Shown piece by piece: positions 8,552 to 14,381 of a stretch of DNA of 14,381 nt. The position numbers and the translations under genes were made by a program. The DNA comes from Vulcanisaeta sp. MG_3 (GTDB taxonomy: Archaea > Thermoproteota > Thermoprotei > Thermoproteales > Thermocladiaceae): NCBI GenBank assembly GCA_001516765.1, contig LOCH01000136.1, forward strand, positions 2,470 to 16,850, written 5' to 3'. The first letter of the stretch is position 1. Every line of letters starts with the position of its first letter. Under the pieces are notes generated by a model, which saw only the letters and a list, made by a program, of their open reading frames with translations, was not told the DNA's origin and did no database searches.

Positions 8552-8698
8552 TTAGTTCAATAACGATAGATAATTCACTAGGCATTTATTGAATTCCGAC
8601 CTGCACCTGCGGCAATCGTCCGTGTACCACGGCTTTAGGCATTGGGCCATGGCCTCCCGATAAACCCTCTCCGCGTAATCAACCCTCTGGCTAATCAT
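8552..8698 (-). CDS. Small four-cysteine protein, 48 residues, unknown
   Basis: Read leftward from ATG 8698, the product is MISQRVDYAERVYREAMAQC followed by LKPWYTDDCRRCRSEFNKC and LVNYLSLLN, ending with TAA at 8552. Cysteines are at 20, 29, 32 and 39 (C-x8-C-x2-C-x6-C). The flanks are amphipathic helices, so it could be a disulfide-pinned helical hairpin or a small metal site. A TATA-like box at 8721-8730 is centred 27 nt before this ATG; another ATG at 8710 would add MALP but lacks that spacing. I do not recognise the family. Codon choice (AGG, GAG, GCC) matches the neighbours, which supports a real gene despite the small size. Confidence 0.6.
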   Translation of the reverse strand: MISQRVDYAERVYREAMAQCLKPWYTDDCRRCRSEFNKCLVNYLSLLN

Positions 8699-8710
8699 TG
8701 GTAAAGCCAT

Positions 8711-8969: not shown

Positions 8970-9906
8970 ATGTTCAAGTATGTATTTGGCCCGGTACCAT
9001 CACGTAGACTTGGACGTTCATTGGGCGTTAATGTTGTTCCACTTAAGTACTGCAACTTCAATTGCATATATTGCCAACTCGGTAGAACTAAGTATCTGGT
9101 TAATGACCAAAGTATGTTTTACGAACCGGAGGAAATAATTAGAGAAATGGAAATAGCCGTTAAATCCAGGGATTACGATTACCTAACATTTATCGGTGAT
9201 GGAGAACCTACGCTATACGCCGGCCTTGGGAAAGCTAATAAGGTGGGCTAGAGAGAATCAGGGGAAACCCTTAGCAATACTGACTAACGGCGCTAAACTA
9301 GCCGATGAGACCGTGAGGAATTGGCTTAGTGAATTAGACGTTGTTAAGGTTAGCACTGATGCCTGTAATGAAAGGGTATTCAGGATGGTTAATAGACCAC
9401 ATAGGAGCATAACATTTGAGGGATTTATTAATGGTCTTGAGAAATTCAGGGAGGAATTCAGCGGCCAAATATGGAGTGAGGTTATGCTGGTACACGGAGT
9501 AAATGACACCGAGGAGTGCGCCGAGAAGGTAGGTGAGGTGCTGAGTAGGTATAGACCCGATAGGGTGTATTTAATGGTACCCACACGCCCACCTGCAGAA
9601 CCGTGGGTAAAACCACCAACTTCAGAGACATTGATTAAATTCGCAAATACTATTTCGAAGTACATAAATAAGGATAGGATATTCATAATAGATTATATCG
9701 AGAGAGGGGAGTTTTACATAGATAAAAATGATCCATTAAGCAGCATATTAAATATACTCAAGGTTCAACCAATGACTATTGAACAAATAATGGATATCAT
9801 TAAGAGAAATAAGTTAGAGCCAGGTATTGTAGATGAGTTAAGGAAATTCGTTAAAGAGGTTGTGTTCAACGGCACTAAATATCTCGTGTACTCAGGCAAT
9901 GATTAA
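8970..9906 (+). pseudogene. Radical SAM protein (COG0731-like), split by a one-base frameshift
   Basis: The first frame (8970-9251) begins [20 protein letters not shown] and has the [4Fe-4S] motif C28NFNC32IYC35, then [10 protein letters not shown], the SAM-contact GGE-like strand. It ends shortly after, but the +1 frame continues without interruption from about 9228 to 9906 ([20 protein letters not shown] onward) and contains the rest of the barrel and a helical C-terminal domain. Removing one G from GGG at 9228-9230 restores a single protein of about 311 residues. The whole downstream frame is intact, so the lesion is recent, a sequencing error or a programmed +1 shift. COG0731 includes wyosine-type tRNA enzymes, but this [13 protein letters not shown] branch has no assigned reaction. 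Type is given as pseudogene for the sequence as it stands. Confidence 0.85.
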
Positions 9907-12392: not shown

Positions 12393-13418
12393 GTGCGGAA
12401 CCTTTTCGACACTAGGCCTAAGAGTTCAAGGGGTGAGCTCTATGATAGGGAGGATGAACTTAAGTTCCTAGACAGAGTTGTTGATAGACCGTTAATAGTT
12501 GTGTTGGGTATTAGGCGTATTGGCAAGACCTCTCTATTGAAGGCGTTCCTCGAGCCTTATAATGGGATTTATATTGATCTTAGGGGTGCGGGTACTCATA
12601 TTGAGCTTTACGAGAGGTTGAGCGAAGGCATCTCAAGTGGCTTGGGTAAGTTGAGGAGGTTCCTTGAGGGAATTAGGGGTATTAGCATAATGGGTGTTAG
12701 CGTGAGTATTAAATGGCGTGGGCAAGACTCAATAAGTTTACTTGGTCTGCTTGAGGAGCTTAATAGGAGGGGGCGGTTCATTGTGGTTTTCGATGAGGCT
12801 CAGGAGGTTAGGCCAGTCTTATCGGCCGAGCTTAGGAGGGTAATAGCCTACTCCTACGATAACTTAGGCAACATAACCATCGTGCTGAGCGGTTCACAAA
12901 TAGGGCTTATGGAAAACTTCATGGGTCTAGGTAACGTAAACTCGCCCCTGTTTGGGAGATACGCTGTTAGGCTTGTGGTACCTAGGTTCACAAGTGATCA
13001 ATCACGCGAGTTCCTAACAATAGGCTTCAGGGAGGCTGGTGTACAACCCCCAGCGGATGTCCTCGAGGAGGCTGTGGCGTTTTTTGATGGAATACCAGGC
13101 TGGCTTGTGCATTTCGGTAGGAGTTATGTTGATGGTATCATGGACATGGGCGAGATCAAGGAAAGGGCTGTATCAATAGCCATGAGCGAGCTCAGTAGGC
13201 TATCAAGGAGGGAAAGGGCTGTATTGAAGGCGATAGCCAACGGTGCGGTAACATGGGGTTCAGCGAGGAGACTGGCTGAGGAATACCTTGGGGAGACAAT
13301 ACCAAAATCAACATTGACCAGGATTGTGAATAAACTCGAGGCCTTAAGTATAATCAAGGATTACAAATTCCTGGACAATGTCTACATGGAGGCAGCTAAA
13401 CAGTTAAAATTAACCTAG
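12393..13418 (+). CDS. Archaeal P-loop ATPase (STAND-like, Arch_ATPase) with winged-helix C-terminus
   Basis: The 341-residue product belongs to the archaeal ATPase family common in crenarchaeal genomes and mobile elements. Before the P-loop is the family box LYDREDELKFLD (16-27). Walker A is GIRRIGKTS at 39-47; Walker B is FIVVFDEAQ at 129-137; the sensor strand ITIVLSGSQIG lies near 162-172. A helical lid with FTSDQSREFL follows, and residues about 270-341 form a winged helix (RRERAVLKAIA, PKSTLTRIVNKLEALSIIKD). Such proteins act as nucleotide switches, but their cellular roles are mostly unknown. The GTG start follows a TATA-like box and a palindrome. Codon use matches the core genome. It borders an atypical downstream region. 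Confidence 0.9.
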   Translation: MRNLFDTRPKSSRGELYDREDELKFLDRVVDRPLIVVLGIRRIGKTSLLKAFLEPYNGIYIDLRGAGTHIELYERLSEGISSGLGKLRRFLEGIRGISIMGVSVSIKWRGQDSISLLGLLEELNRRGRFIVVFDEAQEVRPVLSAELRRVIAYSYDNLGNITIVLSGSQIGLMENFMGLGNVNSPLFGRYAVRLVVPRFTSDQSREFLTIGFREAGVQPPADVLEEAVAFFDGIPGWLVHFGRSYVDGIMDMGEIKERAVSIAMSELSRLSRRERAVLKAIANGAVTWGSARRLAEEYLGETIPKSTLTRIVNKLEALSIIKDYKFLDNVYMEAAKQLKLT

Positions 13419-13638
13419 AGAGGTGCCGAACAAATCATGAAACGAGGTTTGTGTGCCCTGATAGGATGATTATTCACACAGTGAGACAACTCCGTCCTTA
13501 GAAGGGCGAGATTTGCCGTTTGCTTATCATGCCCCTAATCATACCGACGCAGGGTTAGGGCTTGACTTAATCTACCTTGCTCACAAACCACGAAGACGAT
13601 ACAACGAAGGGAAGGATGTTCGCTAGGCCCACTGGGAT
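13419..13638. other. Gene-free region with a weak inverted-repeat unit
   Basis: No frame here looks like protein. A 13-bp imperfect inverted pair (13443-13455 and 13580-13592, 11 of 13 matching) encloses about 150 nt containing a stem-loop at 13490-13510 (CTCCGTCC / GGGCGAG, with one bulge and a G-T pair). The stem-loop resembles subterminal hairpins of IS200/IS605-type elements, but no transposase is present. Confidence 0.3.
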
Positions 13639-13860
13639 TTGTGCTTGGGTTTTCTTGTGGTGGTTGTGCCTTGGGTTTGCTTGGGTGGTTTGTTTGTCAT
13701 CACGTTAGTACTACCTTTGGTAGTTTCCCTATTATTTTCCTCGGTACGTGTTGTTGGATCAAGTGTTTATTGTGGTTGTCATTATTGCGTGTAGTTGGTG
13801 TTGTGTTGCTGTGGAGCACTGGGTATCGCCTACTCACTACGCTAACGACCACGTGGTTAC
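13639..13860. other. Strongly G+T-skewed segment, coding status unclear
   Basis: The plus strand is dominated by G and T. Two overlapping rightward frames give hydrophobic, cysteine-bearing products: one from GTG 13641 to 13877, and one from TTG 13639 of about 52 residues ending YCGCHYCV. The leftward frames give Asn/Thr/His- or Pro-rich products. Because the skew itself makes such products, none can be accepted on sequence alone. Confidence 0.3.
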
Positions 13861-13960
13861 GCACCGCGTGCAAATAGGCAATGTTCCTAGGCACTTCGTA
13901 ATCATTACCCACCTTGAATGGAACAATCGCTTGGTTTGTTCGTAGTGCCTTATAAGCCTA

Positions 13961-13975
13961 ATTGATAAAATAAAT
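13961..13975 (+). promoter_or_regulatory. TATA-like box before the C-x9-C ORF
   Basis: ATTGATAAAATAAAT lies 18-25 nt before GTG 13986 and about 25 nt before GTG 13992. A second box, CTTATAAG at 13949-13956, is also present. Confidence 0.4.
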
Positions 13976-13985
13976 ATTGGCGGGT

Positions 13986-14156
13986 GTGAGCGTGGAATGG
14001 CCGCTTGGGTGGCTAATGACGTATCAAGGAGCTGATTGCCAGTTATGGAGCTACGTTCACAATAAGTGTATGGGATCAAAACTATGCAGTGAAGCAACAA
14101 AAACACTCATGAATGAACTTGGGAAGCATAGGTGTTTCGACAATGCGCCGAATTAG
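13986..14156 (+). CDS. Small C-x9-C protein candidate, 56 residues
   Basis: From GTG 13986 the frame encodes MSVEWPLGWLMTYQGADCQL then WSYVHNKCMGSKLCSEATKT and LMNELGKHRCFDNAPN, ending at TAG 14154-14156. Cysteines are at 18, 28, 34 and 50 (C-x9-C-x5-C-x15-C), within probable helices. A GTG at 13992 would shorten it by two residues and fits the TATA spacing better. The next ORF starts inside its end. The shared motif with that ORF (C-x9-KC, then a third Cys and a Leu-rich helix) argues that both are real. I know of no named family; a helical protein pinned by disulfides would suit a hyperthermophile cytosol. Function unknown. Confidence 0.45.
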   Translation: MSVEWPLGWLMTYQGADCQLWSYVHNKCMGSKLCSEATKTLMNELGKHRCFDNAPN

Positions 14157-14164
14157 GCGCATTG
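14141..14164 (+). repeat. Perfect 9-bp stem hairpin
   Basis: CAATGCGCC-GAATTA-GGCGCATTG forms nine perfect pairs with a six-base loop. The loop contains most of the stop codon of the first small ORF and the 5' arm contains the ATG of the second, so folding could control coupling between them. Confidence 0.55.
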
Positions 14165-14381
14165 CTGCCTCGGCTATGGGTGGGTTCAAAATCAATGGGC
14201 CGCCCAAAATGGGCAAAGGCCCGATGGTTAATGAGGAGGACCAGGAGCCGAGCAACAAAGCCTCCCTGCCCAAACCCACCCAGGCAGGGAGGATAGAAAC
14301 ATGCACCGAGCTGATAAGACAAGCAACGAAGTGCCTAGAGAACAACGACAAACAATGCGTCACGAGACTCATCGAGGAGTT
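14143..14381 (+). CDS. Partial small C-x9-C protein candidate, runs off the window
   Basis: Open from an ATG at 14113 (or 14143, chosen because it overlaps the previous stop by only 14 nt) to the window end. From 14143 the product starts MRRIRRIAASAMGGFKINGP, has a polar Pro/Lys/Glu-rich linker to about residue 50, and then a helix with C54-x9-C64-x7-C72 (ETCTELIRQATKCLENND, then KQCVTRLIEE). The C-x9-KC core and the helix after the third cysteine match the preceding ORF. Overlap suggests translational coupling. Three strong hairpins occur within the coding region, an alternative reading being a structured RNA. The C-terminus is not in the window. Confidence 0.42.
   Translation, partial: MRRIRRIAASAMGGFKINGPPKMGKGPMVNEEDQEPSNKASLPKPTQAGRIETCTELIRQATKCLENNDKQCVTRLIEE
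14197..14222 (+). repeat. Nine-pair GC hairpin with a 3-nt bulge
   Basis: GGGCC-GCCC-AAAAT-GGGC-AAA-GGCCC pairs GCCC with GGGC and GGGCC with GGCCC. It is enclosed by a further 7-bp complement CTCGGCT (14169-14175) / AGCCGAG (14246-14252). Confidence 0.5.
14261..14292 (+). repeat. Perfect 10-bp GC-rich inverted repeat
   Basis: CCTCCCTGCC and GGCAGGGAGG are exact complements separated by a 12-nt pyrimidine/adenine loop. This is the longest exact inverted repeat I found in the window. Confidence 0.6.

Follow-up and report, generated by a model that had tools for sequence, protein, structure and literature searches.

A 14,381-nt stretch of the Vulcanisaeta sp. MG_3 genome (the window) ends in two short overlapping reading frames, ORF1 and ORF2, both of which encode a C-x9-C motif. 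The question raised by this locus is whether these frames are tandem members of an undescribed microprotein family, as the original prediction suggested, or belong to something larger. The genome is 54.6% complete in 164 contigs, and the last base of the window is also the last base of its contig (C136:16850).

The two reading frames and their products

ORF1 (13986..14156, + strand) has three possible start codons: TTG at 13977 (59 aa), GTG at 13986 (56 aa) and GTG at 13992 (54 aa); the stop codon is at 14154-14156. The 54-aa form has the length of many annotated homologues. The protein contains C-x9-C-x5-C with a lysine preceding the second cysteine (DC-QLWSYVHNK-C-MGSKL-C), exactly as had been described; a fourth cysteine follows after 15 residues. 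A profile search seeded with four sequences found 80 homologues among 104 candidates, in Vulcanisaeta and Caldivirga. The name Vulcanisaeta sp. EB80 stands on six of the homologues among the matches listed, which points to several members per strain. In an alignment of 67 rows (63 of the 80 homologues plus four DNA-derived copies), 64 fit the cysteine extraction pattern and three were dropped; the spacing C-x9-C-x5-C-x15-C (9-5-15) is found in 62 of the 64.

The dN/dS ratio of ORF1 is 0.088-0.284 (Nei-Gojobori; six pairs among the window, C11, C47 and C137), while the other two frames over ORF1 give 0.53-1.08 in three of the six pairs. When ORF1 was compared with the first 33 codons of the Caldivirga copy C33, three of four pairs were saturated at silent sites and one gave 0.204. 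ORF1 is a genuine, conserved small-protein gene under selection. The proposed family is thus borne out for ORF1 by its homologues and near-invariant cysteines, and the ratio well below 1 that had been suggested as a check was obtained. The window ORF1 has no match in Pfam, PHROG or NCBIfam, and its profile matches no PDB chain, at the thresholds used. The structure model is weak (pLDDT 63, three helices), and a fold search of the PDB returned a single match with an E-value of 8.9, which is meaningless.

ORF2 (14143..14381, + strand) lies in the +1 frame and overlaps ORF1 by 14 bp if started at ATG 14143; its frame is open from ATG 14113. The C-x9-C-x7-C motif, again with the lysine noted earlier, is present (TC-TELIRQATK-C-LENNDKQ-C). 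Since the window ends with the contig, ORF2 is cut off and is not the very small ORF that it was taken for. With the 205-aa ORF2 of C47, 91 relatives were found among 143 candidates; in relatives, the frame runs on into a LAGLIDADG endonuclease of ~480-523 aa. P0094 (523 aa), P0103 (483 aa), P0104 and P0105 are single frames from the ORF2 start to the LAGLIDADG domain. Full-length relatives begin with the ORF2 start, MH....C..GGFKINGP..PTQ.GRI, and finish with AAPQTHTHG. The cysteine spacing 9-7-12 occurs in 87 of 92 proteins; these are the relatives, out of 107, that fit the extraction pattern (15 dropped). The numbers of homologues, 80 for ORF1 and 91 for ORF2, show that neither motif is due to chance. 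NCBI locus tags place ORF1 and ORF2 homologues next to each other, e.g. RXO76_01600/01595.

PF14528 (LAGLIDADG_3) is recognised above the cut-off in P0096 (1.1e-6); P0103, P0094, P0105 and the C47 and C11 enzymes fall below the Pfam cut-off for LAGLIDADG. A 75-row enzyme profile matches I-CreI and I-DmoI/I-CreI structures in the PDB (best 5.7e-8). The structure model of P0103 has a mean pLDDT of 81 and a pTM of 0.63; Foldseek places E-DreI first (1.5e-7) and the archaeal intron endonuclease I-Tsp061I fourth (4.3e-6). G284/D289 and G370/D373/D375/G376 are invariant in a 16-row enzyme alignment, with an acidic residue in both motifs; these acidic residues are presumably catalytic. Judged from its sequence relatives, ORF2 is the start of a two-motif LAGLIDADG enzyme and not a microprotein. 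Genome scans should therefore compare small ORFs that lie at the end of a contig with full-length relatives.

The ORF2 cysteine domain is modelled in P0103 as helices 47-66, 70-82 and 93-109 with pLDDT 94-98. Of the helices attributed to both frames, those of ORF2 are predicted with confidence and those of ORF1 are not. The tandem paralogues are not supported, as the cysteine regions of ORF1 and ORF2 have no detectable profile similarity: hhalign probability is 0.3% globally and 1.5% locally, over 11 columns. Homology between them was consequently rejected. Twin CX9C proteins are mitochondrial. They have one C-x9-C in common with ORF1 and ORF2; the likeness goes no further, as the second spacing is x15 in ORF1 and x12 in ORF2, and the PDB search with the ORF1 profile was likewise empty.

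Several signals surround the junction of the two frames. A TATA-box-like TTATAAG (13950..13956, + strand) is also found in C137, and C47 and C11 have TTATAAA; this may be the promoter. RNA folding and comparison of copies identify three hairpins, all on the + strand. A 9-bp hairpin, CAATGCGCC/GGCGCATTG, spans the ORF1 stop and ORF2 start (14141..14164); GCGCC/GGCGC in the window is GCACC/GGTGC in C11, and the hairpin is imperfect in C47. The other two lie in the ORF2 N-terminal stretch: GGGCC-GCCCA-aaa-TGGGC-aaa-GGCCC (14197..14222) and a 10-bp hairpin, CCTCCCTGCC/GGCAGGGAGG (14261..14292). The fold of window 14100-14320 has an energy of -92.9 kcal/mol (z -5.76), which 0 of 200 shuffles equalled; the C47 junction folds more weakly (z -2.14; 4 of 200). 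The stretch encoded by the hairpins coincides with P0103 residues 1-41, where pLDDT is below 50.

A broken frame with conserved hairpins had been named as the pattern that would count against a protein. Such a break is seen in C11 only, where a one-base difference with stops, located in the third hairpin, disrupts the N-terminal frame of ORF2; the left arm of this hairpin is altered too, and intact relatives of the ORF2 N-terminus exist. No match to the ORF2 protein is present in C33, where 285 nt of strongly folding sequence (z -4.64) separate ORF1 from the enzyme. A group I intron was considered for this region and dropped, as there was no Rfam match; the Rfam search returned only tRNAs and sub-threshold matches.

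Copies of the element and neighbouring tRNA genes

ORF1 and ORF2 would form the 5' part of an element of ~1.5-1.7 kb in Vulcanisaeta and Caldivirga. Its proposed order is promoter, ORF1 (54-56 aa) and a two-motif LAGLIDADG endonuclease with ORF2 as N-terminal extension. Besides the window's own copy (C136R), DNA copies of window 13900-14381 are present in the same genome in C11 (78%) and C137 (81% over the available part, also at a contig end). In G021 (Caldivirga), which contains both C47 and C33, C47 is a copy of this DNA (80%); 59 of the 61 genomes searched have none. A scan of genome contigs for the element gave one locus, in Caldivirga sp. MU80. These several copies suggest that the element is mobile. 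Two single-protein scans of viral contigs gave no match; a profile scan gave three matches of 25% identity (E 1e-6), which were set aside.

The last codons of the enzyme contain a 26-bp motif, GGCCCCACAAACCCACACCCACGGGG, that marks the right end. This motif occurs nine times in three of 45 genomes (six in G000, one in G009 and two in G021); the reversed motif, used as a control, does not occur in the 45 genomes. It is identical at 26 of 26 positions in C47, C11 and C59 and has one to three mismatches in the six others. Flanks beyond the motif differ among copies.

A tRNA gene lies within 110 bp of the right-end motif in five of the nine cases. Leu(CAA), Leu(CAG) and Tyr are downstream in the same direction, while Asn and Ile face the element; the five tRNAs have five anticodons. 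The chance of finding five of nine beside a tRNA is 6e-11 to 5e-10 with the counted tRNAs, for copies that are not fully independent; the tRNA count used is likely too low because it misses ARAGORN tRNAs beside C33 and C77. At 46 tRNAs per Mb, the chance is 7e-8, with the same dependence among copies. The remaining four end motifs (C59, C159, C129 and C96) have no ARAGORN tRNA in the available sequence, which in C129 is partly N; this counts against a homing element. C77, a tenth copy that is decayed and in which no end motif can be recognised, faces tRNA-Val. A further point against a homing element is that many of the copies consist of decayed 3' ends.

At L005 13649-14322, a decayed endonuclease copy precedes a second tRNA-Tyr-like copy that scores 25.8 bits, less than the gathering score; it adjoins an N gap and lies upstream of the intact pair. 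The other end of the window's contig begins within a further, oppositely oriented copy of the left flank (L008 3-63); the contig is thus broken at this repeat at both ends.

Inverted repeats and BHB-like geometry

The right end of the enzyme gene recurs in inverted orientation at the start of ORF1. The left repeat, which is also the 5' strand of the BHB-like structure, was placed at 13982..14012 (+ strand) by alignment with right ends and by the BHB pattern. It consists of an outer part (13982-13990), a central GTGG (13992-13995), a 3-nt bulge AAT (13996-13998) and an inner part (13999-14012). When copies were paired with their own ends, C33 scored 39 (best of 300 shuffles 24) and C11 31 (23); C47 paired no better than shuffles (21 versus a maximum of 24 in 300). 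A second test, with milder gap penalties and the best match among five right ends (a choice left uncorrected), gave scores of 25-45, against 8-14 in direct orientation. Under this scoring, 0 of 500 dinucleotide shuffles were as good for C33, C47, C11, C136R and C137, and 2 of 500 for the distant G044. An outer left-end repeat was rejected as a terminal repeat, since 10 to 167 of 500 shuffles were as good.

With their own right ends, two of three complete copies (C33 and C11) have BHB geometry by pattern; C47 fails. The pairing in C33 and C11 runs in the order outer helix, 3-nt AAA bulge, GUGG/CCAC, 3-nt bulge and inner helix; both the order and the polarity correspond to those of an archaeal BHB splice site. 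Opposite the AAA bulge, there are 2 nt in C33 and none in C11, where the fit is exact. Among 2000 shuffled left ends, any BHB motif appeared in 5 and 7, and a motif with as many pairs in none. The pattern should be read as a hypothesis because it was noticed after the alignment was seen. A two-sided change is present: C33 has GUGUGAG/CUCACAC where C11 has GUGUGGG/CCCACAC.

The left end in the window gives BHB geometry with the C33 right end and not with those of C11 or C59; the left end of C137 does so with all three right ends tried, and that of G044 with none of the three. In the minimum-energy cofolds, C33, C136R and C137 contain a 3-nt bulge and a 4-bp helix with an opposite bulge of 2 or 3 nt, but C11 does not adopt the BHB fold. 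As the contig ends, the window lacks the right end of its own copy; we predict that this end will read AAACTCACAC, not AAACCCACAC, matching GTGTGAG at the left end.

These ends raise the possibility of a true archaeal BHB intron, as in rRNA genes of Thermoproteales, that carries ORF1 and the endonuclease, is spliced by the tRNA-splicing endonuclease and homes in the ordinary way to a fixed exon site. According to PMC4496867, BHB has a role in the archaeal splice site, and BHB introns with LAGLIDADG genes are known in Thermoproteales. The canonical polarity in C33 and C11 and the three cofolds would fit such an intron. We nevertheless consider it rather unlikely: the failure of C47 and the different C11 cofold weigh against it, and the flanks read are tRNA leaders or unrelated DNA with no common exon gene. 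No empty site was found: the junction pattern occurred in 17 places compared with 12 for the reversed control. An apparent empty site at VDTHTHG codons of a Caldivirga gene in G015, which we take to be amidohydrolase-like, was dropped because of this control; two similar matches were in G030 and G034. Compared with the I-DmoI and I-Tsp061I introns, which have the two-motif fold and whose BHB site the paired ends resemble, the element adds an N-terminal cysteine domain (ORF2) and a separate small protein (ORF1); it has no rRNA or tRNA exon around it, and its inverted repeats carry the outer helix along.

When the C33 flanks were used to look for an empty site, most matches were tRNAs; a conserved leader RNA was also found. 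This hairpin RNA of ~64 nt (GATGAG-CCCC...GGGG-TGATCCA; L044:2817-2885, L110-L115, L072 and L052) directly follows AT-rich, TATA-like stretches. It precedes ORF1 in C33 and, as a divergent form, in G044, and is present elsewhere in further genomes; 8 of 45 have a match to this section of the query. Both sides change in 5 of 21 predicted pairs in a 9-row alignment, and no Rfam family was found; it is possibly a new RNA family.

A candidate selfish element beside tRNA genes

Taken together, the locus is probably part of a LAGLIDADG selfish element that spreads among tRNA loci, with a SegB-like lifestyle and ORF1 as an accessory. The points against it are the four end motifs with no tRNA called close by, the decayed copies, the failure to find an empty site, the deviating ends of C47 and cofold of C11, the fit of the window's left end to C33 alone, the missing right end of the window's copy, and the left-hand gene fragment common to Vulcanisaeta-type copies. 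Its inverted terminal repeats would be the beginning of ORF1 and the last part of the endonuclease gene. By analogy with SegB, the endonuclease would cut both DNA strands at tRNA loci, and the element would be copied in beside the tRNA when the break is repaired from a copy that bears it. Since the paired ends look like a BHB site, the tRNA-splicing endonuclease may cut the message of the element from read-through transcripts. The most likely role of ORF1 is to help the endonuclease or its RNA; our guess is a putative disulfide or zinc protein that binds one of these. To our knowledge, a small protein dedicated to a homing element is rare, and ORF1 would be such a case. If a tRNA-side endonuclease with splicing-signal-like ends is real, it would be a directly testable agent.

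SegB of phages T4/T6 is a parallel in neighbourhood: as in the element, an endonuclease gene lies beside tRNA genes. It adjoins phage tRNA genes and cuts inside them, with the motif RAWTSGAAC, according to PMC13096335. SegB is a free-standing GIY-YIG homing endonuclease and differs in its nuclease fold and its phage host; cleavage by the element is proposed from this analogy. We know of no inverted repeats for SegB. IStrons have in common the idea of combining mobility with self-removal from RNA; these bacterial elements (PMC4227781) combine a group I ribozyme with an insertion sequence, and neither component is recognised here. The titles and abstract openings of the literature matches listed do not describe this element. 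A bolder formulation is that archaea have a new kind of selfish element here: a portable BHB intron whose outer (exon-side) helix travels with it in the form of inverted terminal repeats, and which encodes a cysteine-domain LAGLIDADG enzyme and a dedicated four-cysteine microprotein, colonises the flanks of many different tRNA genes and is excised from transcripts by the host tRNA-splicing enzyme. This is speculative, and we regard it as doubtful.

Another explanation is a DNA transposon-like unit that a different recombinase mobilises in trans and whose cargo is the LAGLIDADG gene together with ORF1. The inverted terminal repeats, a feature of insertion sequences, and the diverse flanks would suit it, as would P0016 and P0037, enzyme relatives shortened internally in which the terminal peptide APQTHTH is retained. 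The larger ORFs of C11, C47 and C33 include ORF1 and the LAGLIDADG protein as the only ones recognised, and no transposase; six further ORFs of C11 and C47 matched no Pfam family. Target-site duplications, looked for by eye, were not established, and a preference for tRNA genes would be unusual; such a unit is unlikely.

The left flank suggests a further explanation, in which the locus is a satellite, carried as cargo by a plasmid-like element that has a CedD/HerA-type ATPase and integrates at tRNA 3' ends; its position near tRNA genes would follow from this. The left neighbour of the element is a C-terminal fragment of a gene for a 166-186 aa protein (13706..13927, - strand; C136:16175-16396; 50% identity). 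The C-terminus of this protein is present in the left flanks of C136R, C47, C11 and C137. An ATPase gene followed by this gene forms a module in G044, G004 and, with the ATPase in pieces, G005 (loci L070, L074 and L080); the G004 ATPase weakly matches CedD/VirB4, and the module is likely part of an integrated mobile element. Antisense tRNA 3' ends are found at the left in C47 and C137. A less clear, decayed tRNA-3'-end-like stretch (T-arm/acceptor, antisense) was placed in the window at 13626..13649 (- strand) by alignment of C136R, C47 and C137, and is a presumed remnant; ARAGORN calls no tRNA there. C33, however, has no match to the ATPase-adjoining protein and yet lies beside a tRNA, and we judge the satellite improbable as well. 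The left flank may represent a second mobile element, or it may belong to a larger unit; since Vulcanisaeta-type copies share the left-hand gene fragment, they may have spread as this larger unit.

Tandem paralogous CX9C microproteins forming disulfide-pinned hairpins are by far the least probable explanation: their similar cysteine spacing and the confidently helical ORF2 domain would agree with it, but ORF2 belongs to a large enzyme, which already refutes it as a microprotein, and has no profile homology with ORF1.

In the rest of the window, an archaeal ATPase_2 family gene (PF01637, 5.9e-16) is located at 12393-13415, upstream of the left flank. A second four-cysteine small ORF at 8555-8710 (- strand) encodes 52 aa with C-x8-C-x2-C-x6-C. 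It has one match each in 11 of 45 genomes of the order, including 10 of 12 in the genus of the window, and is probably a genuine undescribed microprotein that is unrelated to the element. Overlapping ORFs at 8970-9251 and 9196-9906 look like one protein, which we take to be of radical-SAM type, split by a frameshift or sequencing error.
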